Positions 8,022 through 40,473 of a stretch of DNA of 40,473 bases are shown piece after piece. The notes under the pieces are model-generated. The model was not told the origin of the DNA. It was given only the letters and a program-made list of their open reading frames with translations, and did no database searches. Source of the DNA: a virus; IMG/VR virus record IMGVR_UViG_3300023223_000360, positions 1-40,473 of that record; one strand, given 5' to 3'. The translations under genes were made by a program, and so were the position numbers. Position 1 is the first letter of the stretch. The number at the start of each line of letters is the position of its first letter.

Positions 8022-8699
8022 TTAAGCGGGCCAGTTCTGACCTTTGTAAAATTTCCATGTGCGACCATTATCGAAAACAAGTGTACAAGGAAAAAACATA
8101 TCGCCTGTAATTGTATTGGTGAATGTCCACGATGGATAATCGGGATCGAGGCTTGTATAGTTATTTAAACCGAAAGGCTGAATAACCCCATCTTTACGAT
8201 CGATAAAAGCATAATTATGTCCGCCGTTGTTTTCATGAACTTGAAATCTTACCCACTCCACGCCTAAATCTTCATAATTAAATAAACCTACTTCGAAGTC
8301 ATTTGTCGTTAGGGATATTTTTTCACCGCTACCAATTCCAGTAATTGCGTTCCCTGCCCAAACCTCCCGAATATCACCCGACACCCAAGCAGTCCCGCCG
8401 ATTGTCACATTCGAGCCTATATATTCTAATATATAACTAGGATTAGAGTCCGGTGTGCCTATTGCGGGCTTATTCGGTGGTGGTGGGCCGACTTGCGCAA
8501 CTTCAAAAATTCCATAATGCCAAGCGCTTTGATTGGTTGTTAGGTTTTCTGCAAAAACAGTAAATAGCTTTGTGCCTGCTGTTAAAGGTGCTTCCGATGA
8601 TAGCTCAACACTTGTATCATTAACTAATTTAACGTCGGCATTATTAGCGCCTGCGCCTACTTCATCGGGATCAACTTTTAATACATAAGTCCAAGCCAT
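8022..8699 (-). CDS. virion-associated hypothetical protein
   Basis: 225 residues, Gly/Asn/Thr-rich, predicted all-beta, with a PPPPNKP linker near residue 73 that separates a small N-terminal domain from a larger one. The C-terminus is aromatic (FDNGRTWKFYKGQNWPA). It lies among tail fibre genes with 3 bases to the upstream neighbour. It is probably a fibre, chaperone or receptor-binding accessory. No family recognised. Confidence 0.65.
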   Translation of the reverse strand: MAWTYVLKVDPDEVGAGANNADVKLVNDTSVELSSEAPLTAGTKLFTVFAENLTTNQSAWHYGIFEVAQVGPPPPNKPAIGTPDSNPSYILEYIGSNVTIGGTAWVSGDIREVWAGNAITGIGSGEKISLTTNDFEVGLFNYEDLGVEWVRFQVHENNGGHNYAFIDRKDGVIQPFGLNNYTSLDPDYPSWTFTNTITGDMFFPCTLVFDNGRTWKFYKGQNWPA

Positions 8700-22433: not shown

Positions 22434-22501
22434 TTGCAATCCGCAATAGCCCATGTATATTAAGAGTAGTAAGATAACTTAACGAAAAAAAGGAAATAAC
22501 G
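22434..22501 (+). promoter_or_regulatory. phage promoter P3 with leader
   Basis: TTGCAA (22434-22439), 16 bp spacer with the TTGC-N5-GCAA dyad over the -35, TATATT (22456-22461), AACTTAAC (22476-22483), and AAAAAAAGGAAATAACG directly before the gene at 22502. It is nearly identical to P2 over the -10 to ACTTAAC region. It gives the inserted cassette its own transcription in the direction opposite to the head operon. Confidence 0.85.
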
Positions 22502-22639
22502 ATGACACAGAAAATGAAAGAGCTACTAATTAAAATCGGCGAAAACAATATCAAGGTTTTAGAGGCAAAAAAACCAAAGGGTTATAAATCATTAATAACC
22601 TTATGGGAAAAAGATATTAAAGAAGCAAGGGGTAATTAA
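22502..22639 (+). CDS. small hypothetical protein, cassette gene 1
   Basis: 45 residues, helical and lysine-rich (LIKIGENNIKVLEAKKPKGY). The ideal AAGGAAATAAC leader precedes its ATG. No known family. It is the first gene of the plus-strand cassette inserted in the minus-strand head operon. Gene calling may miss it because of its length. Confidence 0.65.
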   Translation: MTQKMKELLIKIGENNIKVLEAKKPKGYKSLITLWEKDIKEARGN

Positions 22640-22640
22640 T

Positions 22641-22811
22641 ATGACACTTGACCAATTGCACGACCTAGCAGAGACATCGCCGAGGCATGAGAGATTCTTA
22701 ACCAAAATACATAATAAGGTAATTAAGCAATTAAGAAAAGAAAATAGGCCATCAAATAGCGATAATGTGATTCAATTAAAAGAAAAGTTTTGCCAAAGGT
22801 ACTCGCTATGA
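22641..22811 (+). CDS. small hypothetical protein, cassette gene 2
   Basis: 56 residues, basic and helical, beginning two bases after the previous stop. Its TGA overlaps the ATG of the PAPS-reductase-like gene (ATGA), so translation is likely coupled. No motif recognised. Tight packing suggests it functions with the enzyme that follows. Confidence 0.6.
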   Translation: MTLDQLHDLAETSPRHERFLTKIHNKVIKQLRKENRPSNSDNVIQLKEKFCQRYSL

Positions 22812-23704
22812 TATGCCATTTCTCATGCGGTGCGACTTCGGCAGTTGCGACAATCCTTGCATTAATGGAAGACAGCGAAGAAGCAATCGAGGCTGTATAC
22901 GCTGACCCAAGCATGGAACATGAAGACAATAAAAGATTCATGGAAGACTTTGAAGAGATTGCGGGAATAAAAATAACTGTTCTTAAAAGCAAAAAATATA
23001 AAGACCCTTTTGACGTATTTGACCAAAAAAGATTCTTGTCCGGTGTTTATGGCGCACCCTGCACTACTGAATTAAAGAAAAAGGTTATTGCCGACTACTT
23101 AGCAGAAAGGCTAGTTTTAGAACCTCATGTATTCGGTTTCACCTCAGATGAAGAAAGCAGGATAAAAAGATTTAAGGATAATAACCCCGAGATCGATTTA
23201 AGATTACCTTTAGTTGATAAAGGCTTATCTAAAGACGATTGCTTATTCATACTTAGAGAAATAGGGATAAGTTTGCCGATGATGTACAAGCTAGGCTATA
23301 GAAACGCAAACTGTACTGGCTGTGTAAAAGCTGAGTCGATTGGTTACTGGTCTGCCATTCGTGAAGACTTCCCCGTTATCTTTGAAAAGTTTTCTGAACG
23401 TGAAAGGCTATTTGGCAAAAAAATAGATGGTGTTCCTCGTGGTGTAGCAATTAATAAGCAATATAAAAAATGCGAAGATTGCAAGGATTCCAGTTGCGGT
23501 AATTGTGATAAAAATAATCAAGTTCGTCATCGTGTTTTTTTAGATGAAATACCGAAAGACTTTCCGCCAAAGAGATCAATTAGCTTTTCTTGTGGATATT
23601 CTTGCGGTACTCAAGATATGGAATTTATCGAGGATGAATTAACAAAAGAGCCAACGTTAACAGCTTGGATGATCTTAGAAGACATTAAAAGATGGTTGAG
23701 TTAA
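22808..23704 (+). CDS. PAPS-reductase-like (adenine nucleotide alpha hydrolase) protein
   Basis: 298 residues from the ATG at 22808; AAAGG lies 8-9 bases upstream and an in-frame TTG at 22790 is less likely. Near the start SCGATS is a variant of the SGG.DS PP-loop that binds ATP or adenylyl substrates. APCTTELKK (about 83-91) and NCTGCVKAESIGYW (about 168-181, in pieces) match phage PAPS-reductase-like proteins. Eight Cys in pairs (CTGC, CEDC, CGNC, CGYSCG) suggest zinc or iron-sulphur binding. Relatives include PAPS reductases, DndC and QueC-like enzymes, so it may act on sulphur or nucleic acids. It shares its TTAA stop with the opposing gene. Confidence 0.8.
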   Translation: MICHFSCGATSAVATILALMEDSEEAIEAVYADPSMEHEDNKRFMEDFEEIAGIKITVLKSKKYKDPFDVFDQKRFLSGVYGAPCTTELKKKVIADYLAERLVLEPHVFGFTSDEESRIKRFKDNNPEIDLRLPLVDKGLSKDDCLFILREIGISLPMMYKLGYRNANCTGCVKAESIGYWSAIREDFPVIFEKFSERERLFGKKIDGVPRGVAINKQYKKCEDCKDSSCGNCDKNNQVRHRVFLDEIPKDFPPKRSISFSCGYSCGTQDMEFIEDELTKEPTLTAWMILEDIKRWLS

Positions 23705-25718: not shown

Positions 25719-25993
25719 TTTATTCCTAAAGTTGATTTCTAATATAATAATAGCCTTTTAGAACTCTTTCAATGTAAAAAGCAAAAAATCAACTTGACAA
25801 AATTAAATACATAGGGAAAAAGGCGGGCGCTCTCAAGGCAAACGAAAAATTATGTTTTTACAATTTACTTAGGTTATAAGGCAAAAGCGAAAGTGTATTA
25901 ACTTTTATTTTTTAAACTTGAAAGCGCCCTAATAACTAGCGCATAAGTGGCCAGTTAAATTATTTTATTATTATACATCGTTATCTCGATTAA
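25719..25993. other. gene-free region between TerL and portal with two inverted repeats
   Basis: No ORF of note on either strand. Two inverted repeats lie in the would-be portal leader: AAGTTGATTT (25729-25738) with AAATCAACTT (25786-25795), 10 bp perfect, and GGGCGCTCTCAAG (25825-25837) with CTTGAAAGCGCCC (25917-25929), 12 of 13 pairs with a 79-base loop. It could be a leader RNA, a packaging site or an origin-like element; the sequence does not decide. Confidence 0.7.
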
Positions 25994-27388
25994 TCAATAA
26001 ATACTAATCTCTCTTTTTTGTTTTGTAACTAATTCGGCGCATCCTGTTAAAGTATCGGCCGAGTCATCATGTGCGTTTTTGCCCTCTTTCTGAAAACCTG
26101 CGAGCGACTTATAAAACAAAGGCCAAACGAGATGCCACCCTTTAGGATAAAGAACATTTTCCATAACCCAAAAGCTATTACTTATTATCCGAGCTATTTT
26201 ATTCTTAGATTGATGAAACCATTTGACGACACAATCCCCGCCTAAATCTTTATGTATTCTTATAACGTTACGAGCAAAGGCCCGTCCGCCGTTATTGGAT
26301 TCGATCATTGCTTTATCCGTTTCGTTGTCTAAAAGCTTCTGAGCGATCAAAGGCTCGGTTATTTCTTGGCCGTCTTGCGTATAAACAACATCATAGATAT
26401 ATATTTTCTTCATGTAAACAATAAAAAAGATTGCGCATAAAAAATCCTTGCCCTCGTCGGCTGTATCGATATAAGCCATCTTGACACCTTCGGGTAAATC
26501 GTTTTCGGTATATTCCAAAAAGCTTTTATACAAACTGCCTTGATCGTCGATTGTCTCTTGATGAAAGTTAGCTTGAAATATAAGTGGACAAGTCAATTTC
26601 TTTTTTGCTTTATAAGTTTCATAGCTCATTATTTCATCACAAAGCATATTCTCGCCGTCATAAACGGGAATCTTTAAAACATACCATTGCCCTTCTTCTT
26701 CTTCCAATAAGCGCCCGCAAAGGTCACGCTCGGCCCATCTAGTAAAGTTCACAATCTGTCTTGCGCCTTCTTCGAGTCTTGAAAGCCAAGTGTTTGTGTA
26801 CCAATCCCAATGGCCATCTAATATTATTTCGTTTCGGGCCTCGTAAGCATCTTTGACCAAATCATCAATAATACCTAACGTACAACCCATACCTGTTAAT
26901 GTACCTTTAGGTGAACCGCCCATATATGAAAAGTGGCTATCTTCTAAACTCCACAATTGAGCACTGGCATCGCCGAATTTTACTCGAGCTTCAAATATAT
27001 CGCAATACTGCAGACTATCGGGATCAACATTTTCCATCTCTATGTCATTTTTTACAAACTTCGAAAAACGGCCCGAAAGCTTTTGATTATAAGACGCTGT
27101 GATAATGCCCTCTTTAGGTGATTTGCCCAAAAACCACGAGCAAAGCTTAACCAATGATAACGATTTTAAATGCCTTGGCGGTAAATTCATCATCATTTTA
27201 GTGTAGGGCGTGCCGTCTTCTTTTAATAGCTTGCCTTCGATAAAATTCTGCAAAGTGTCAGCAATTACTTTCGCATGGGGCCGAGAATCTTTGAATTGCT
27301 TGGGTAAAACGGCTTTCTCGTATTCCCAAAATGAACGCCTGCACCGCTCCGCTTTTAATTTCTTGCCTGTTATGGAATCAATAATCAA
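25994..27388 (-). CDS. terL: terminase large subunit
   Basis: 464 residues from a TTG at 27388 that overlaps the preceding TGA (TTGA); no suitable ATG exists before the ATPase. The ATPase has NLPPRHLKS (Walker A variant, about 68-76) and LGIIDD (Walker B, 171-176). The nuclease has Asp308 in YIDTADEG, Glu363 in MIESNNGG and the aspartates of HDDSADTL (440-447). TerL packages DNA into the prohead and cuts it. It lies 5.6 kb from the TerS-like gene, an unusual gap. Confidence 0.92.
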   Translation of the reverse strand: MIIDSITGKKLKAERCRRSFWEYEKAVLPKQFKDSRPHAKVIADTLQNFIEGKLLKEDGTPYTKMMMNLPPRHLKSLSLVKLCSWFLGKSPKEGIITASYNQKLSGRFSKFVKNDIEMENVDPDSLQYCDIFEARVKFGDASAQLWSLEDSHFSYMGGSPKGTLTGMGCTLGIIDDLVKDAYEARNEIILDGHWDWYTNTWLSRLEEGARQIVNFTRWAERDLCGRLLEEEEGQWYVLKIPVYDGENMLCDEIMSYETYKAKKKLTCPLIFQANFHQETIDDQGSLYKSFLEYTENDLPEGVKMAYIDTADEGKDFLCAIFFIVYMKKIYIYDVVYTQDGQEITEPLIAQKLLDNETDKAMIESNNGGRAFARNVIRIHKDLGGDCVVKWFHQSKNKIARIISNSFWVMENVLYPKGWHLVWPLFYKSLAGFQKEGKNAHDDSADTLTGCAELVTKQKREISIY

Positions 27389-27573
27389 TTATTTTCATCT
27401 TCCTGTTTATTCATTCTTTTATATATATCACTCGTGTACCAAATTGGCGGAATTATCACTGGTTCAAGGCATTCCCGATAAGAGTTAAGCCATTTTTTTA
27501 ACGGAATTTTAGATTTATAAGACTTATCTAGCTTGGCCATCAACTCTTCTAACTTCTCTTCTGTTATTTTCAT
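27385..27573 (-). CDS. small hypothetical protein upstream of TerL
   Basis: 62 residues from the ATG at 27573, which has AAAAGG upstream and overlaps the previous stop as TAATG. A helical, Lys-rich N-terminus (EEKLEELMAKLDKSYK) is followed by a Trp-containing middle. It overlaps TerL by 4 bases. No family recognised; it might help packaging because of its location. Confidence 0.6.
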   Translation of the reverse strand: MKITEEKLEELMAKLDKSYKSKIPLKKWLNSYRECLEPVIIPPIWYTSDIYKRMNKQEDENN

Positions 27574-27719
27574 TATAAACCTTTTGATTTCTTTAAATGC
27601 CGATAACATAAATCGTTATCAACAAAAACTTTCTCACAACATAAAATACATTTCGAGTTCCAATTATTCAAGAAGCGCTTTTTATTGTCTCGGCGGTCTT
27701 TGTCGCCTTTGCCGTTCAT
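27573..27719 (-). CDS. small zinc-finger protein
   Basis: 48 residues. A basic N-terminus (KDRRDNKKR) is followed by CILCC, then LCYRHL, giving a CxxC...CxxxH-like metal site. Its start overlaps the upstream gene by 4 bases (ATGA) and its stop overlaps the next start (TAATG). The order basic stretch then zinc finger suggests nucleic-acid binding. HNH-type relationship is possible but the motif is too short to claim. Confidence 0.6.
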   Translation of the reverse strand: MNGKGDKDRRDNKKRFLNNWNSKCILCCEKVFVDNDLCYRHLKKSKGL

Positions 27720-28129
27720 GATTGTATAATCACAATTTTATCATCCGTTAGTTTTTTGATCTTAGCTTTTAGCTCAGTAATATAGATATCCTTTGCGAGA
27801 ACATTCTCTTTTGCCGAATTAGCAACAAGCTCATGAGATTTAATTATCTCCATTTTTCTACATACTTTTTCTTCAAGCATTTTTATCTGCTCATCTTTTG
27901 AATTAATCTGTTTTTCCTGCTCGGCTAGCATCTTTTGAACTATATCGAAATTAATAAAAGTGTTATTTTTTACAAAGCCCCTTCCTGTATTTGATGCGTT
28001 ATAATTTACCCATTCAATCTGAAAAGAACCCTTTTTACTTTCACCCTCTCCAAATAAAAAGACCTTTTCCGGCTCTTGATCAACCATTCTCGTTCTTAAA
28101 TTTTCATGAAACCAGTCTAATTCACTCAT
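27716..28129 (-). CDS. coiled-coil hypothetical protein
   Basis: 137 residues. The N-terminal half is mixed; the second half (about 66-130) has continuous heptads (EQEKQINSKDEQIKMLEEKV and on), predicting a coiled-coil dimer or trimer. Upstream sequence GGAAGGTATAAT precedes the ATG at 28129. No family recognised. Confidence 0.65.
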   Translation of the reverse strand: MSELDWFHENLRTRMVDQEPEKVFLFGEGESKKGSFQIEWVNYNASNTGRGFVKNNTFINFDIVQKMLAEQEKQINSKDEQIKMLEEKVCRKMEIIKSHELVANSAKENVLAKDIYITELKAKIKKLTDDKIVIIQS

Positions 28130-28130
28130 A

Positions 28131-28298
28131 TTATACCTTCCTTTTTAAATTAAATGTCATTGATTCCTCGCGAACTAACCACTTATCTAAATTAGCTTGC
28201 ATCTTCTGAGCCAAAGCGACATCGGCTTCGCTCATATTGCGTTTATTTGACGCTTTAAGTGCGTTTTTGAATACTACGTCGAACATTGTTTTATACAT
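28131..28298 (-). CDS. small hypothetical protein
   Basis: 55 residues, helical, from the ATG at 28298 with GGAG upstream; the stop lies one base from the next start. Sequence includes FDVVFKNALKASNKRNMSEA. Gap-free packing in the operon supports it as real. No function known. Confidence 0.55.
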   Translation of the reverse strand: MYKTMFDVVFKNALKASNKRNMSEADVALAQKMQANLDKWLVREESMTFNLKRKV

Positions 28299-28616
28299 TT
28301 ATTGACTCCTTAATTTTCGTCTTAATTCATTTGCTGTAACTGGATGACATATAAGTCCCATCGGTGTTTGCATTATATTAGGCGATGGAATTGACCCGTA
28401 TTTCTTTAGATATTTCTTATTAATGCGCTTGCGCTTATGTGTCCTCTTTGGAATAACCATAAGACAGGTTTCAATGATCTTTATATCATGCGTATAAGAT
28501 GAACGGAAGTCACCGAACTCAATAGAGAGTGGCGACGATGCTGATGACGCTGACGACGGATTGTCATACCTAACTGGCGATCCTAATATATTGGTTGGAT
28601 AATCTAATATGCCCAT
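28299..28616 (-). CDS. hypothetical basic protein
   Basis: 105 residues. A Ser/Ala-rich N-terminal part (NPSSASSASSPLS) leads to a very basic segment (IPKRTHKRKRINKKYLKKYG) and an alpha-helical end. The basic cluster implies nucleic-acid contact. The operon continues in close spacing. No family is recognised and the start is not fully certain. Confidence 0.55.
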   Translation of the reverse strand: MGILDYPTNILGSPVRYDNPSSASSASSPLSIEFGDFRSSYTHDIKIIETCLMVIPKRTHKRKRINKKYLKKYGSIPSPNIMQTPMGLICHPVTANELRRKLRSQ

Positions 28617-28665
28617 TTGTTTCGCTCCGAAAATTCTTTTAAGTATATATAGTATGCAATTTCCA

Positions 28666-28827
28666 TTATTGGCCTTCTATGATTACTTCATTAATAGGAT
28701 ACAAGAAAGTCAAAACGCTATCTTTCTTAAATTTGACTGAGTAGCTATTTTTTAGCCAGTCCGAACGCTCAATTGATACAATACTGCAAAGAACATTTTC
28801 AATTATAGCCATTTTAGCGTTTTTCAT
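28666..28827 (-). CDS. small hypothetical protein
   Basis: 53 residues from the ATG at 28827, which overlaps the end of the upstream gene and follows a GGATGGGAT stretch. Beta-rich with AIIENVLCSIVSIE and KDSVLTFLYP elements. No motif recognised. A longer start at 28866 would overlap the upstream gene heavily and is less likely. Confidence 0.5.
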   Translation of the reverse strand: MKNAKMAIIENVLCSIVSIERSDWLKNSYSVKFKKDSVLTFLYPINEVIIEGQ

Positions 28828-28999
28828 GATCCCATCCGCAAGTATGACAAGAATTGAACATCTCATGTATCGCCGATTCTAGTGTCGGATATGCCATCGT
28901 ATCCCAACAATCCGGATAATGTATCTTTTGGCTTAGATTATAAAGAGTCAATTCTAGTAGCTCTATTTTTTCGGTTAATTCTCCTACTGGATCATTCAT
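28814..28999 (-). CDS. small Cys/His-containing protein
   Basis: 61 residues, started at 28999 right after the stop at 29001 (TAATATG). The N-terminal helix (ELTEKIELLELTLYNLSQK) is followed by a Cys/His-rich end (CWDTM...CHTCGWDH), a possible metal site. The longer reading up to 29092 is a shadow of the gene at 29001 in another frame. Confidence 0.55.
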   Translation of the reverse strand: MNDPVGELTEKIELLELTLYNLSQKIHYPDCWDTMAYPTLESAIHEMFNSCHTCGWDHEKR

Positions 29000-29000
29000 A

Positions 29001-29141
29001 TTATACCATCCCCAATTCAATTCTAATTTTCGCCATTGCTTGCGCTTTCTCGACCTTGGCTTGGTCTTTCTCGGCTTGCGTTTTAGTTCCAAACATCGCT
29101 TTTACTTTTCTGTCGTAGTTTTGTATTGATTGCTGTGTCAT
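29001..29141 (-). CDS. small basic hypothetical protein
   Basis: 46 residues, placed directly after promoter P4 and the AAAAAGGAAATAAC leader, so it is the first gene of this unit. Helical, Lys/Gln/Ala-rich (AEKDQAKVEKAQAMAK). It was missed by ORF length limits. No function known. Confidence 0.65.
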   Translation of the reverse strand: MTQQSIQNYDRKVKAMFGTKTQAEKDQAKVEKAQAMAKIRIELGMV

Positions 29142-29205
29142 GTTATTTCCTTTTTAATATTAGTGTTAAGTAATTATAATATAGTGCCTATATTGCGTAT
29201 TGCAA
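29142..29205 (-). promoter_or_regulatory. phage promoter P4 with leader
   Basis: Read on the minus strand: TTGCAA (29200-29205) with TTGC-N5-GCAA dyad, 16 bp spacer, TATATT (29178-29183), ACTTAAC (29165-29171) and AAAAAGGAAATAAC before the gene at 29141. The -35 overlaps the 3' end of the membrane-protein gene at 29188. Confidence 0.83.
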
Positions 29206-29487
29206 CACATGATACACGCAATAAAAGAAAATAATCCAAATTAATATTAAGATAACCCAAAAACAAATGATGTGATTTAGCTTTTTCTTTGATGTTTGTA
29301 TAAAATCATTGTAGTTTGTAGCTTTGTTTTCCCAATCAAAGTGCTCGGGCATAAAAGCACCTGCTTTAGATGTTAGAGTAATCCTTTTACCGCCATTAGT
29401 ACTTCCGTCAGTTACAACCCAAGGCTCCCACTCATAATGCAATGGCTTCCGCCTTGATACTGGCCGTTTCATTTTATGCTTATTCAT
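29188..29487 (-). CDS. C-terminally anchored membrane protein
   Basis: 99 residues from the ATG at 29487, which has GAAGGGAG upstream. The first 70 residues are soluble and basic at the very start (KHKMKRPVSRRK). A strongly hydrophobic segment (about 74-96, rich in Ile, Trp, Phe) is the C-terminal anchor. A tail-anchored protein next to a lytic transglycosylase could be a holin-like or lysis-regulating protein, but no motif proves it. Confidence 0.65.
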   Translation of the reverse strand: MNKHKMKRPVSRRKPLHYEWEPWVVTDGSTNGGKRITLTSKAGAFMPEHFDWENKATNYNDFIQTSKKKLNHIICFWVILILIWIIFFYCVYHVLQYAI

Positions 29488-29671
29488 TTTCGCTCCCTTC
29501 TGTCCATACATCACACTGGAATATAACATGAATTCCATGATTGCACTTACTACAATTAATCGAGCTTGTTCTAAAAGGCTCATTGAATTCATCGGGTAAA
29601 TCATCGATGTCGATTTTAATATCTGTCACGTACTCACATTTACTGCAGTAGTGTTTGCCTTTATAAATCAT
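29480..29671 (-). CDS. small zinc-ribbon protein
   Basis: 63 residues with two CSKC knuckles (CSKCEYVTD near the start and INCSKCNHG around residue 39), a classic zinc ribbon. The ends overlap neighbours by a few bases. Such small zinc proteins are common in phage accessory regions; the function is unknown. Confidence 0.65.
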   Translation of the reverse strand: MIYKGKHYCSKCEYVTDIKIDIDDLPDEFNEPFRTSSINCSKCNHGIHVIFQCDVWTEGSENE

Positions 29672-30030
29672 TTGATTAACTCCTTTCTAACTTTAAGCCA
29701 ATATTTGACCGTTGCTTTTTTTTGGTAGCCACGAGGCCCGCCGTTATGGATTTTAGCCAGTACCATAATATTGACAGTACCGTGCTTTTTTGCGTAACGA
29801 TTGCCCCAATACAAAAGATACTTGCTAGCGATCTCTTTGCTTAATTTCGGGCTGTATCGGTCTTTATACGTGTAATTAGTCTTGTATATGCGGTTTACAT
29901 CATCGACAGTAATTTTATGAATCTGCAAAATACCAACAGCTCGGCCATTATCGCCGACTGCGTCCGCCTGCCCGCCCGACTCTACTTGAATCAAAGCGGT
30001 TAATAATATCGTTATTAGTTTAATTAGCAT
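29668..30030 (-). CDS. small lytic transglycosylase (endolysin candidate)
   Basis: 120 residues from the ATG at 30030, with ACAGG 8 bases upstream. LIQVESGG places the catalytic Glu at 17; then GDNGRAVGILQIHKITVDDVNRI and a C-terminal IHNGGPRGYQK in pieces match phage SLT/lysozyme-like transglycosylases. There is no separate signal peptide: the hydrophobic start is part of the catalytic helix. Release of the protein would need a holin. It lies far from the tail-end lysis candidates. Confidence 0.82.
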   Translation of the reverse strand: MLIKLITILLTALIQVESGGQADAVGDNGRAVGILQIHKITVDDVNRIYKTNYTYKDRYSPKLSKEIASKYLLYWGNRYAKKHGTVNIMVLAKIHNGGPRGYQKKATVKYWLKVRKELIK

Positions 30031-30220
30031 CGACATCGCCTGTACCATCGCAACACAAACACTCATTCCATTTGGTCTGCCATTCGCTATAAAACGAATC
30101 AACCTGCACATATACCGATATATCCCAACCGCCCCAACCTAGACAATTTTTACAGTTAGTCTTCGGCTTTGTTTCCCCTTGGTGCATCTTGTCAACTTCT
30201 TTCTGTGATAAAACTTTCAT
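30020..30220 (-). CDS. DnaJ-type zinc-finger protein
   Basis: 66 residues from the ATG at 30220 after a conserved leader (GGGAAATAAC). CKNCLGWGG and CLCCDGTG are two CxxCxGxG-type modules as in the DnaJ cysteine-rich domain. The N-terminus is short and helical. Many phages have such small DnaJ-like zinc proteins of unknown role. An upstream longer reading includes the leader and hairpin and is rejected. Confidence 0.65.
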   Translation of the reverse strand: MKVLSQKEVDKMHQGETKPKTNCKNCLGWGGWDISVYVQVDSFYSEWQTKWNECLCCDGTGDVDAN

Positions 30221-30238
30221 GTTATTTCCCTTTGGTTT

Positions 30239-30254
30239 GCCGGCTTTCACCGGC
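30239..30254 (-). other. GNRA-capped intercistronic hairpin
   Basis: On the minus strand GCCGGT-GAAA-GCCGGC forms a 6 bp stem (one G-U) with a GNRA loop, placed between the stop at 30262 and the leader of the gene at 30220. It is comparable to the hairpins at 581 and 2374. Confidence 0.55.
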
Positions 30255-30261
30255 GGTTGGT

Positions 30262-30399
30262 TTATTTGTAGCTGTTGGCTAATTCTTGAGCTTCTTCCAT
30301 TGTATTTTCGTTCCAAGTATAAATTCCGTCTACTACTACCCAAAAACGTCCGGCTTGAAATTTAGTGTCGATTGTTACTTTTTGCGTTTCGTTGTTCAT
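30262..30399 (-). CDS. small hypothetical protein
   Basis: 45 residues with a GAGGAAATAAC leader, first gene behind promoter P5. Strand-rich start (QKVTIDTKFQAGRFWVVVDG) with a YTWNENTMEEAQ helix. No family recognised. Too short for many gene callers, but promoter, leader and packing support it. Confidence 0.6.
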   Translation of the reverse strand: MNNETQKVTIDTKFQAGRFWVVVDGIYTWNENTMEEAQELANSYK

Positions 30400-30464
30400 G
30401 TTATTTCCTCGTTTGTGTTATTGTTAAGTTAAGTATAATATAAACGCTCTATTGCATAATGCAA
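30400..30464 (-). promoter_or_regulatory. phage promoter P5 with leader
   Basis: Minus strand: TTGCAT (30459-30464) with TTGC-ATTAT-GCAA dyad, 16 bp spacer, TATATT (30437-30442), doubled ACTTAACTTAAC (30423-30434), then GAGGAAATAAC before the gene at 30399. It lies downstream of a strong terminator. Confidence 0.83.
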
Positions 30465-30483
30465 CACCTAATATATAAATAAT

Positions 30484-30520
30484 ACAAAAAAATACCGCAA
30501 TCTTTTTAAGGACTGCGGTA
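30484..30520 (-). terminator. intrinsic terminator
   Basis: Minus strand: TACCGCA ... TGCGGTA stem (with further weak pairs) followed by seven Ts. It ends the unit 31838-30538 and separates it from promoter P5. Confidence 0.88.
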
Positions 30521-30537
30521 AATATCGAAAATCAGCG

Positions 30538-30780
30538 TTAGACTTCTTCTACTTCGGGATACCAACTCGGCTCAGATTCTTTCTGCGTGTGAGTCTGTAT
30601 ACCTACAGGACAAACAGTATAGAACCATTCTTCTGCATCTTCACGCTTTCGGACGTTGTCCCATTTTACTGTAATATCCCAATACTCATGCGAGACGTTA
30701 TTCTTAGCATCCTTAAAGGCTTGAAAATCTACCTCTTGAGCATCTAACCCAGCTTTTTCTGTTATAAATGTATTTTTCAT
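30538..30780 (-). CDS. hypothetical protein
   Basis: 80 residues from the ATG with AAGGAATATT before it. Aromatic, acidic, with HEYWDITVKWDNVRKRED and EEWFYTVCPVG. No family recognised. It lies directly behind the lectin-like gene and before the terminator, so it is probably part of a small virion- or fibre-related unit. Confidence 0.6.
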   Translation of the reverse strand: MKNTFITEKAGLDAQEVDFQAFKDAKNNVSHEYWDITVKWDNVRKREDAEEWFYTVCPVGIQTHTQKESEPSWYPEVEEV

Positions 30781-30788
30781 AATATTCC

Positions 30789-31571
30789 TTAAATCGTTGG
30801 TGGAGAACCTTTATATGGATGTCCGATAGGCAAACTCGCTTGAGTTCCCCACTTCCATGCGAGGTAGCCTTCTAACTTTTGACGATCAGCGGGAGGGCCT
30901 ACTACTACTTCACAGAATAATCCATCTGCATTGGAAGCGTTGCCCCGTAGTTCGCCTATCGCATCGAACTGTATAGTTCCGTCGAAAGCGAGAGGATTAC
31001 TCGGCGACGGTTCACCGTTGATGAACGACTCTCTATTTACGTCAAATTTAATCGCTAATATGTTTGGAACAAATTTTCTGTCTGTCGCAGGGTCAAACGA
31101 AGCTGCAGCGCTGCCATCATAACTACTTAGACTGCCATTTACATTATCCGTTCTCCACCGAATAACTTGATTATTTACAGCTGTGTCCGCTAAGATCATT
31201 CCTCCCGAAGCACCAGTGTCATTCCCATATCCTTTCCACATGACCACTATCACCTTACCTGCGGCACTTATGGGTGAGGCTGTACGAAGTACTATACCAC
31301 TACCATTGTAAGTTATGGTGTTTAGTCCGCCTACTGTGTCTAAGAAGGTTGGTGGTTGCTTGGCTCCAAGTGCCTGTAACATGTGTCTGTCATACCCGCT
31401 CTTGTCGCTAAGTTGAGAAACATCACCACCCGACTCAATAATATTAGTAGGTGACGTATCAGACGCATCTAACAATAAATCGTAAGTCTGTGTTGGTTCG
31501 AGTACTGGCGTCCAAAGTGGCCGACGTCTAAATACTGGCCGTAAACCTAATCTTGTCCTTGATAAAAACAT
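30789..31571 (-). CDS. concanavalin A/LamG-like lectin-fold protein
   Basis: 260 residues. After a basic N-terminal segment (RLGLRPVFRRRPLW), the chain has the pattern of LamG/concanavalin-like phage proteins: LLLDASDTSP, VSQLSDKSGYDRHM, KQPPTF, a central jelly-roll, and a C-terminal LEGYLAWKWGTQASLPIGHPYKG signature. The last motif recurs at the ends of many phage tail or fibre proteins. It may be a receptor-binding accessory encoded far from the main tail operon. The next gene resembles a spike base. Confidence 0.72.
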   Translation of the reverse strand: MFLSRTRLGLRPVFRRRPLWTPVLEPTQTYDLLLDASDTSPTNIIESGGDVSQLSDKSGYDRHMLQALGAKQPPTFLDTVGGLNTITYNGSGIVLRTASPISAAGKVIVVMWKGYGNDTGASGGMILADTAVNNQVIRWRTDNVNGSLSSYDGSAAASFDPATDRKFVPNILAIKFDVNRESFINGEPSPSNPLAFDGTIQFDAIGELRGNASNADGLFCEVVVGPPADRQKLEGYLAWKWGTQASLPIGHPYKGSPPTI

Positions 31572-31574
31572 AAT

Positions 31575-31838
31575 TTACCAAAGTATTTGAGTTGCTATTG
31601 TTGTGCCGGTGGTAATCTCGGTCGCTCTAATAGGAAGTATTTCACCTTTGAGAACATTGTAAGTCACTGCTGTACCGTCGGCATCTTTCATAATAATAAT
31701 ACCATCGGCATCGGCTCGAATAGCTCGCGGTATTTCATCGGCTGTAAAAGCTCTTAAAGTTCCTAACGCTAAGGCTTCGTGAAATTTTGCGGGACTATCT
31801 AAACCGCTTTGATTGGTGCTAAAATCTTTTTCGGACAT
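31575..31838 (-). CDS. spike-base-like protein
   Basis: 87 residues from the ATG at 31838 with GGAG upstream (another in-frame ATG at 31850 lacks one). The C-terminal part (TAVTYNVLKGEILPIRATEITTGTTIATQILW, in pieces) resembles the end of RCAP_Rcc01079-type spike base proteins (LP.R...V.aTGTTAT.I..L). It sits next to the lectin-like gene, so both may build a small fibre or spike. Similarity is recalled from the family pattern only. Confidence 0.6.
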   Translation of the reverse strand: MSEKDFSTNQSGLDSPAKFHEALALGTLRAFTADEIPRAIRADADGIIIMKDADGTAVTYNVLKGEILPIRATEITTGTTIATQILW

Positions 31839-31901
31839 GGTTTTCTCCATAAATTAAGGTTACATAATAACCTAACGTCACTTAGTATTATTTGCAAATA
31901 G

Positions 31902-31948
31902 AAAAAAACCTGCGTACCTTACTAGTTTAGAAAGCTAGTGGTAGCAGG
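31902..31948 (-). terminator. strong intrinsic terminator ending candidate ncRNA
   Basis: Minus strand: CCTGC.TACC.ACTAG pairs with CTAGT..GGTA.GCAGG (14 pairs, small bulges), followed by seven Ts (31902-31908). It ends transcription started at promoter P6 and insulates the gene at 31838. Confidence 0.88.
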
Positions 31949-32120
31949 CTTGGACTTATCATCGGCCCTTAAAAAAAATCAGCTTTGTCTCACGATATAC
32001 AACCCTTGATTGCCGAAGCACGAACAACTTAATGTCATTTAGGAGCATCCCGACTGATCACGAGGTCAGTTGCCAAAGATTAACTATATTGAACTTATAT
32101 CAGAGGTCTAGTTAATATGC
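31902..32120 (-). ncRNA. candidate phage non-coding RNA (about 215 nt)
   Basis: Between promoter P6 and the terminator lies a gene-free stretch of about 215 bases. No ORF with a leader is present on either strand. It contains an ACTGA-CCTCGTGA-TCAGT hairpin and an internal T8 run (near 31971-31978 on the minus strand) that might act as an early stop. No known RNA family is recognised. Promoter at one end and terminator at the other make an expressed RNA likely. Function unknown; it could be a small RNA or leader relic. Confidence 0.6.
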
Positions 32121-32126
32121 TACTTA

Positions 32127-32154
32127 AATATAAACCATCTGCTATTATTTACAA
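32127..32154 (-). promoter_or_regulatory. phage promoter P6 (diverged)
   Basis: Minus strand: TTGTAA (32149-32154), 16 bp spacer, TATATT (32127-32132). The spacer ends GATGGTT as in P8. The downstream AGTAGC.TATTAACT resembles a decayed ACTTAAC box, and no AGGAAATAAC leader follows, which fits a non-coding transcript. Confidence 0.65.
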
Positions 32155-32158
32155 TCAC

Positions 32159-32434
32159 CTAATTCTGTAGGCTATAAGTCGAGGCCTTATCTTCAAATAC
32201 ATAAACATCAATAATGGTTTTTGCGTCATCGTCAAGAACAATAATGTTGCCGTCTTCATCTAAAACATATCTTTCGACTTCAACCGTTCTATTATTAAAA
32301 TCAAAGTTGGCATGAACGTTTAATTTAACATCTCTAACCAAAGCCTCTGATTTGACACCATCTATAAATAAATCCCCGTCACTTGTGAATTTAACGTCTT
32401 TAATCTTCTTGCTTATTACATTTCTTTCAATCAT
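32159..32434 (-). CDS. hypothetical protein
   Basis: 91 residues, beta-rich, with DGDLFIDGVK and two strand-turn-strand stretches. No family recognised. It lies just before promoter P6; its stop is 4 bases from the -35. Start at the only upstream ATG with a weak AGGTAATAAA site. Confidence 0.6.
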   Translation of the reverse strand: MIERNVISKKIKDVKFTSDGDLFIDGVKSEALVRDVKLNVHANFDFNNRTVEVERYVLDEDGNIIVLDDDAKTIIDVYVFEDKASTYSLQN

Positions 32435-32454
32435 TTTATTACCTTATTTTGTTA

Positions 32455-32619
32455 TTACCTGCGTCGTCTTCTATAATAATCGTCGTCGTCATAATCATCT
32501 TGCTTTCTACATAAGGCCCAAAATATAAGATGAAGTGGAATCGTTAAAAAAAGCCCTATCAAACCAAAGAGCAAAGCAAAAAAATGTAGCATTAAAAACA
32601 TACCATGAGCAAAACACAT
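32455..32619 (-). CDS. small membrane protein with acidic/basic tail
   Basis: 54 residues, starting after TAAGGAAATAAT. A hydrophobic hairpin (MFLMLHFFALLFGLIGLFL and a second helix) is followed by a DDYDDDDYYRRRRR-like tail of Asp/Tyr then Arg. The tail charge would keep the C-terminus inside. It may regulate lysis or exclusion; this is inference. Confidence 0.6.
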   Translation of the reverse strand: MCFAHGMFLMLHFFALLFGLIGLFLTIPLHLIFWALCRKQDDYDDDDYYRRRRR

Positions 32620-32628
32620 ATTATTTCC

Positions 32629-32691
32629 TTATTTATTATTTAAAAGTCTTAGTCTTGTACATTCGATACAGGTGCAATTCTCAATCATCAT
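32629..32691 (-). CDS. putative 20-residue Cys-rich micropeptide
   Basis: ATG at 32691 overlaps the preceding stop (ATGA) and the ORF ends before the leader of the next gene. The chain holds CTCIEC, a possible metal site, and an Arg/Leu-rich end. It is very short and may be chance, but the overlap is like the neighbours. Confidence 0.3.
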   Translation of the reverse strand: MMIENCTCIECTRLRLLNNK

Positions 32692-33026
32692 ACACAATCC
32701 CATAAGTTTTCTTCTAGTATTTTAGAAGCTTCATTGTTTGGTTCTTTCTGATTAGATAAAAGGTCAGCAAAAAACGTAATCTCTTTACATGTATCAGACC
32801 ATAAAGCGCCTTTTAAATCAACATCGGCAATAAACATCCAGTCGCCTGTAATTTGCGACCAGTCGTCGCCGTCAAGTCTTGCTACATTCTCATAAGCATA
32901 AACGCTCCCGTCTGAATCGGTCGCCAAATAATTCATATTTTCGGGAACATCTAAAATCAAATCAAAATACTTGGCTTTCTTTGTTTTGAAGAAATCGGCA
33001 ATTTCTTGAGGCTCTAATAAAATCAT
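32688..33026 (-). CDS. hypothetical protein
   Basis: 112 residues, acidic, with aromatic strand segments (KAKYFDLILDVPENMNYLA, DDWSQITGDWMFIADVD). No family recognised. Start overlaps the TerS-like stop by one base. Its place directly behind the TerS-like gene suggests co-expression with it. Confidence 0.6.
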   Translation of the reverse strand: MILLEPQEIADFFKTKKAKYFDLILDVPENMNYLATDSDGSVYAYENVARLDGDDWSQITGDWMFIADVDLKGALWSDTCKEITFFADLLSNQKEPNNEASKILEENLWDCV

Positions 33027-35766: not shown

Positions 35767-35861
35767 TAAGCGTGGCAGGATTCGAACCTGCACCTTTTTT
35801 TGAACACTTGGGCCAAAATCTCCACTATGTAGAACGCTCTATCCAATTGAGCTACACGCTT
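35767..35861 (-). tRNA. tRNA-like gene with aberrant anticodon/variable region
   Basis: Perfect 7 bp acceptor stem (AAGCGTG/CACGCTT), a canonical D arm (GCTC AATTGGATA GAGC) and a canonical T arm (GCAGG TTCGAAT CCTGC); discriminator A, CCA not encoded. The part between D and T arms is 43 bases after position 26, about 20 more than a class I tRNA. No 7-base loop with T33 and a 5 bp stem is evident, so no anticodon can be assigned. It may be an inserted, decayed or unusual tRNA, or a regulatory mimic. It lies between SSB and the small-gene block. Confidence 0.7.
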
Positions 35862-40329: not shown

Positions 40330-40473
40330 GCCTTGACCTATTGCAAATAGCATTATATATTGAGGTAACTTAACAAAAGGAAATAACGAAAAATGGAAAA
40401 ACCGATCATTATAGAACTACCAAAAATCTCAAGGACTTTATTTACCTATGAGACTTATGGCGTAAAAATGGGC
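40330..40473. repeat. terminal direct repeat, copy 2
   Basis: Exact copy of bases 1-144, including P1, its leader and the 5' end of the gene at 64. The partial gene here is the same gene as at 64-399, not a second one. Confidence 0.95.

Follow-up and report, generated by a model that had tools for sequence, protein, structure and literature searches.

The '6S' RNA of the lambda-type late leader is about 200 nucleotides (nt) long. At phage late promoters, a terminator lies ahead of the late genes, and Q helps polymerase to read through it (PMC6606751). IsrK of Gifsy-1 is the short RNA of a single promoter that also gives rise to a read-through mRNA (PMC4825925), and among phage-encoded base-pairing small RNAs some measure 200–225 nt (CfrI and aQ) and some are intergenic (reviewed in PMC12197685). 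Here we analyse a noncoding gap from which, to judge by its sequence, a short untranslated RNA is probably transcribed just upstream of a tail-protein cassette; that this RNA is an independent regulator is possible.

The window, which is the whole stretch of DNA analysed and an IMG/VR virus record, comprises 40,473 bases and has identical ends (1–144 and 40330–40473). Because of these 144-base repeats, we take it to be probably a complete genome, its ends representing terminal repeats or an assembly overlap. By its predicted gene content it is a tailed phage, with PHROG matches to terminase, portal, major head, tape measure and tail fibre proteins, a ParB/methyltransferase fusion, replication genes and a PAPS reductase.

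A noncoding gap between the terminase genes

The gap (Table 1) separates two minus-strand open reading frames (ORFs) of 91 codons each, at 32159–32434 and 31575–31850, and the features described there by the first-pass annotation all lie on the minus strand. In this phage the genes for the small and large terminase subunits are 5.6 kb apart (27389–33025), and the gap sits in the intervening block, together with tail, lysozyme-like and unknown genes. In L085, which is among the nearest contigs carrying the methyltransferase and the terminase small subunit, the terminase large subunit and portal genes come directly next, with no gap; the ORF layout of L086 is the same, as far as that contig extends.

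The first-pass annotation held that no coding sequence fits the gap, and our coding tests agree. We trained a phase-specific composition model on the genes of this phage. Under it, true gene frames average +0.089 and the best frame exceeds +0.015 in 95% of coding windows; across the gap, the best of six frames scores between −0.06 and −0.09 in each 102-nt window. The longest ATG-initiated ORF on the minus strand encodes 29 amino acids and has no usable Shine-Dalgarno sequence. Six-frame translation pieces of the gap gave no convincing protein match in this phage or the relatives fetched. A missed or recently decayed gene was ruled out on the same grounds, with neither coding signal nor protein similarity in any of the six frames.

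Table 1. Features of the noncoding gap and the adjoining tail cassette
Feature	Position	Strand	Description or basis
Noncoding gap	31851..32158	-	308 nt; ORF list and gap table; six-frame coding test
12-nt repeat TATTATTTRCAA	31886 and 32143		Two copies in the gap
P6, TTGTAA-N16-TATATT	32127..32154	-	Promoter-like; one mismatch to the phage promoter core; low full-matrix score
Perfect 8-bp dyad ATTAACTA-N22-TAGTTAAT	32079..32116	.	Just downstream of P6; possible operator
Predicted untranslated transcript, ~215 nt	31902..32120	-	Inferred from P6 and T1
Transcript body	31949..32120	-	No stable structure; z +2.05
Second T run, eight Ts	31971..31978	-	Sequence; only a weak hairpin ahead of it
Perfect antisense match of 13 nt, ATAAGTCCAAGCC	31947..31959	-	Target 8685–8697, just behind the start codon of ORF 8022–8699 and including its last base
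Intrinsic terminator T1	31902..31948	-	14-pair hairpin (31948–31909) followed by T7 (31908–31902)
Tail-protein cassette	30538..31850	-	Tail-fibre-like protein (91 amino acids), virion protein (260) and an 80-amino-acid ORF; G+C 43%
Terminator T2	30493..30520	-	Closes the cassette

A strong terminator and a promoter-like site

The terminator T1 proved to be exactly as the first-pass annotation had described it, a strong hairpin of 14 pairs followed by seven Ts. Its core pairs are CCTGC/GCAGG, TACC/GGTA and ACTAG/CTAGT, its local fold has a z score of −3.7 (60-base window against dinucleotide shuffles), and with an energy of −18.9 kcal/mol it ranks with the strongest intergenic terminators in this genome. 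That energy does not settle the matter by itself, because shuffled whole genomes, scanned on both strands with long loops allowed, also yield T-tailed hairpins of −17 to −20 kcal/mol; T1 is convincing through its position in the gap and its compact loop. It begins about 200 nt behind the upstream stop codon, compared with 6–18 nt for three other minus-strand terminators.

The promoter-like site P6 was assessed against a promoter set recurring in this phage. The set consists of six sites of the form TTGCAA-16-TATATT, one of them with TTGCAT, and downstream of all six lies the leader GGAAATA(A/G)C (GGAAATAACATG), followed by a start codon. Cores at least as close to this form as that of P6 occur at 8 sites in the genome against 1.0 expected. 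P6 has the core hexamers and 16-nt spacer of the set with one mismatch, and cores as good arose in only 47 of 10,000 dinucleotide shuffles of the gap on that strand and in 84 of 10,000 on either strand. On the full-site matrix, by contrast, P6 scores 11.7 and the six members score 22–30 (each left out in turn). That score was reached in 39 of 3,000 shuffles of the gap, and shuffled genomes contain 1.7–2.7 sites each that equal or exceed it, or 9.0 with one intermediate choice of flanks. The dyad TTGCA-N3-TGCAA, seen over the −35 box at most other set promoters, is absent from P6. As a generic sigma-70 site P6 matches at 9/12 positions, a quality found 12 times in the 4-kb surroundings against 12.6 expected by chance.

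The earlier claim that P6 shares the phage promoter pattern thus stands for core and spacer and fails for the full matrix and the dyad; the accompanying remark that P6 lacks the translation leader is borne out, with no GGAAATAACATG leader behind it. At most, P6 is a variant that lies outside the regulated promoter set, and we regard its being a working promoter as reasonably probable.

The dyad itself (at most one mismatch) occurs five times, at 22434, 29193, 30452, 38022 and 39281, each time at or beside the −35 box of a set promoter, and is a probable operator of a phage regulator. The PAPS reductase-like gene (22502–23704, plus strand) is placed within the structural region, is encoded on the other strand and has a TTGCAA-set promoter of its own ahead of it. 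A search of IMG/VR for the promoter-plus-leader pattern returned five contigs, none with protein similarity to this phage.

A predicted transcript without stable structure

If transcription started about 7 nt past the −10 box of P6 and ended at T1, it would yield the ~215-nt RNA listed in Table 1. The fold of this whole predicted transcript is no better than that of shuffled sequences (z +0.2 to +0.45), and 298 of 300 shuffled versions of the body without T1 fold as well as it does or better. Nothing between P6 and T1 points to a structured RNA.

Rfam 15 at its gathering threshold matched only a tRNA-Leu (35767–35861) in the whole window, and at a permissive threshold the gap returned only a chance match of 15.5 bits. 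This agrees with the first-pass statement that no known RNA family is matched; for an orphan phage such an absence means little. DNA similarity to the gap was found among neither phages nor plasmids, and a loose T1 pattern with a free loop had no match in IMG/VR. The 16-mer ATAAGTCCAAGCCTGC occurs there in 16 contigs, in all of them embedded in unrelated sequence. The search used found no IMG/VR relatives of the flanking ORFs 32159–32434 and 31575–31850, in collections that may omit near-identical records. The terminase large subunit reaches a best identity of 46–48% in IMG/VR and GTDB genomes, too distant for RNA comparison, and the best relative of the methyltransferase shares about 55% identity.

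A possible transcription switch ahead of the tail cassette

The genes directly downstream form a cassette whose annotation rests on PHROG matches, with tail and virion genes spanning 31850–30789. Its G+C content exceeds the 36% of its surroundings, and it was probably acquired. All three genes are intact, and a GGAG Shine-Dalgarno sequence precedes the ATG at 31850. Between T1 and this first start codon, promoter-like sites are no better than 8/12. The cassette would be silent if T1 stopped all transcription; polymerase must therefore pass T1, by leakage or antitermination.

Our preferred reading, held tentatively, is that the gap combines promoter, untranslated leader and terminator in one unit ahead of the tail cassette. 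RNA polymerase would start at P6, at about 32120 on the minus strand, and most transcription would end at T1, so that the short untranslated RNA might accumulate. A fraction passing T1, through leakage or an antitermination step, would go on to transcribe the cassette (31850–30538) and end at T2, making the short RNA at least partly a by-product of the switch. Several observations favour this arrangement, for which phage late promoters and Gifsy-1 IsrK are precedents: the core match of P6 is rarer than chance in the gap, T1 lies unusually far behind the upstream stop codon, the downstream genes have a Shine-Dalgarno sequence but no promoter-like site above 8/12, and the cassette is a bounded segment between T1 and T2, of distinct G+C content, within the block between the terminase genes.

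Against the switch stand the weak full-matrix score of P6 and several searches for antitermination signals. No Q-type antiterminator was detected with PF06530 or PF03589 in six frames (E ≤ 1), which leaves room for an unrelated antiterminator. boxA-like sites are not enriched (61 found, 50.7 expected), and the one at 32047–32039, TGCTCCTAA, is within chance. The 16-nt spacer of P6, inspected by eye, has no 6-bp direct repeat like that of the phage 21 Q-binding site; other Q types use other sites. A −10-like TATTAA element at about +4 to +9 of the transcript matches at 4/6 positions, as is expected often in A+T-rich DNA. We also considered an antiterminator fold built into the leader and rejected it: it falls 7.1 kcal/mol short of the fold that includes T1, and no competing fold of equal energy was found. 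Alternatively, the upstream operon could feed the cassette through T1.

The first-pass annotation went further and proposed an independent orphan noncoding RNA gene. The layout is indeed read most economically as a short untranslated transcript that runs from P6 to T1; independence goes beyond the evidence, with the body unstructured and P6 a distant member of its set. Because the cassette genes have no promoter-like site of their own above 8/12, a leader or attenuator is at least as likely as a noncoding RNA gene.

Alternative explanations

One form of independence is a trans-acting small RNA, in which the unpaired AUAAGUCCAAGCC just before the terminator of the P6–T1 RNA would pair with the mRNA start of ORF 8022–8699 (AUGGCUUGGACUUAU) and block its translation. 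The promoter-like site, the lack of an ORF and the strong terminator with its U-tail suit this explanation, as does the perfect 13-nt match at the start codon, since matches of 13 nt to any start region were reached by 35 of 2,000 shuffled RNAs (p about 0.02). Genome-wide, however, a longest match of 13 is ordinary (shuffles give 11–14), the duplex energy was reached by 5 of 40 shuffles, and ORF 8022–8699 has no recognisable function. When the whole RNA was paired with the phage start regions, the best duplex did not go beyond shuffles. We consider a trans-acting small RNA rather unlikely and treat the 13-nt match as a lead for testing, not as evidence for a target. The more specific proposal that P6 makes a new phage small RNA that pairs across the first codons of ORF 8022–8699, in the tail/lysis region, and so times or damps production of its 225-amino-acid protein is a long shot.

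A second alternative dispenses with P6, reading its sequence as a chance match: the methyltransferase/terminase-small-subunit operon would simply end at T1, with the 200 nt in between serving as spacer or representing debris from the insertion of the tail cassette. In favour of such a 3′ trailer, the body is unstructured, the comparison with L085 marks the region as an insertion, and P6 itself fits poorly into its set, being weak on the full matrix, lacking the dyad and the leader that characterise the set and having a generic sigma-70 quality expected by chance nearby. This plain trailer is in turn at odds with the long stretch between the upstream gene and T1 and with the core match of P6, which shuffles of the gap equal in less than 1% of cases; moreover, an idle spacer is unusual in this genome because about 92% of it is coding. 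On balance the trailer explanation is about as likely as the trans-acting small RNA, rather unlikely but with a real chance of being right. We rate as very improbable a DNA element in place of an RNA, such as an operator or an attachment, packaging or replication site built on the 8-bp dyad or the 12-nt repeat. The gap does contain both sequences, and only about 0.9 kb separates it from the gene for the terminase small subunit, but we estimate (without simulation) that both are of chance size for A+T-rich DNA, no integrase gene was recognised among the proteins scanned, and the G+C skew does not turn at the gap.

Better RNA candidates elsewhere in the window

Two other noncoding stretches, 1936–2022 on the plus strand and 25822–25968 on the minus strand, fold much more stably than chance would predict and make stronger RNA candidates than the gap at 31851–32158. 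The former contains a closed 10-bp hairpin, ACTTACTAGG/CCTAGTAAGT, followed by nine Ts (z −4.1). Its loop carries the 9-mer ATGTTATTTCC, the exact reverse complement of the repeated translation leader GGAAATAACAT; by our estimate about 0.5 copies of the 9-mer are expected. The hairpin may belong to a small RNA directed at this shared leader, or the match may be due to chance. The latter lies just ahead of the portal gene, where a promoter-like TTGATT-16-TATAAT is followed by the folded 147-nt stretch (together 25822–25997). A closing stem of 12–13 bp, GGGCGCTTTCAAG/CTTGAGAGCGCCC, precedes five Ts (z −3.7), marking this region as a candidate RNA or attenuator.

Comparison with known systems

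The gap shares with the lambda-type late leader (PR′, '6S' RNA, tR′ and Q) a predicted promoter, a predicted untranslated RNA of about 200 nt, an intrinsic terminator and virion or late genes on the same strand. It differs in that Pfam gives no Q homologue, the P6 spacer has no recognisable Q-binding repeat, the pause signal is only a −10-like TATTAA at about +4, matching at 4/6 positions, and at most a three-gene cassette would be controlled instead of the whole late region. We do not file it as a Q-type leader because neither a Q homologue nor a visible Q-binding repeat turned up and boxA-like sites are at chance level.

From Gifsy-1 IsrK the gap differs in having no Rfam match and no antiterminator gene seen upstream, and any pairing between its short and long forms is hypothetical; what the proposed unit has in common with IsrK is a single promoter, a short terminated RNA and a fraction reading into the next genes. 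The predicted P6–T1 RNA resembles some phage base-pairing small RNAs in being untranslated, intergenic and of similar size (200–225 nt), whereas its transcription is predicted and the one candidate target match that it has is statistically borderline.

Should the transcript exist, an undescribed lineage of phages would gain a regulatory untranslated RNA, and the unit would illustrate how phage transcription takes in an inserted tail cassette. Taken alone, and with the modest general interest that this implies, the unit would be one more case of a known arrangement in which a terminated short RNA precedes phage genes.
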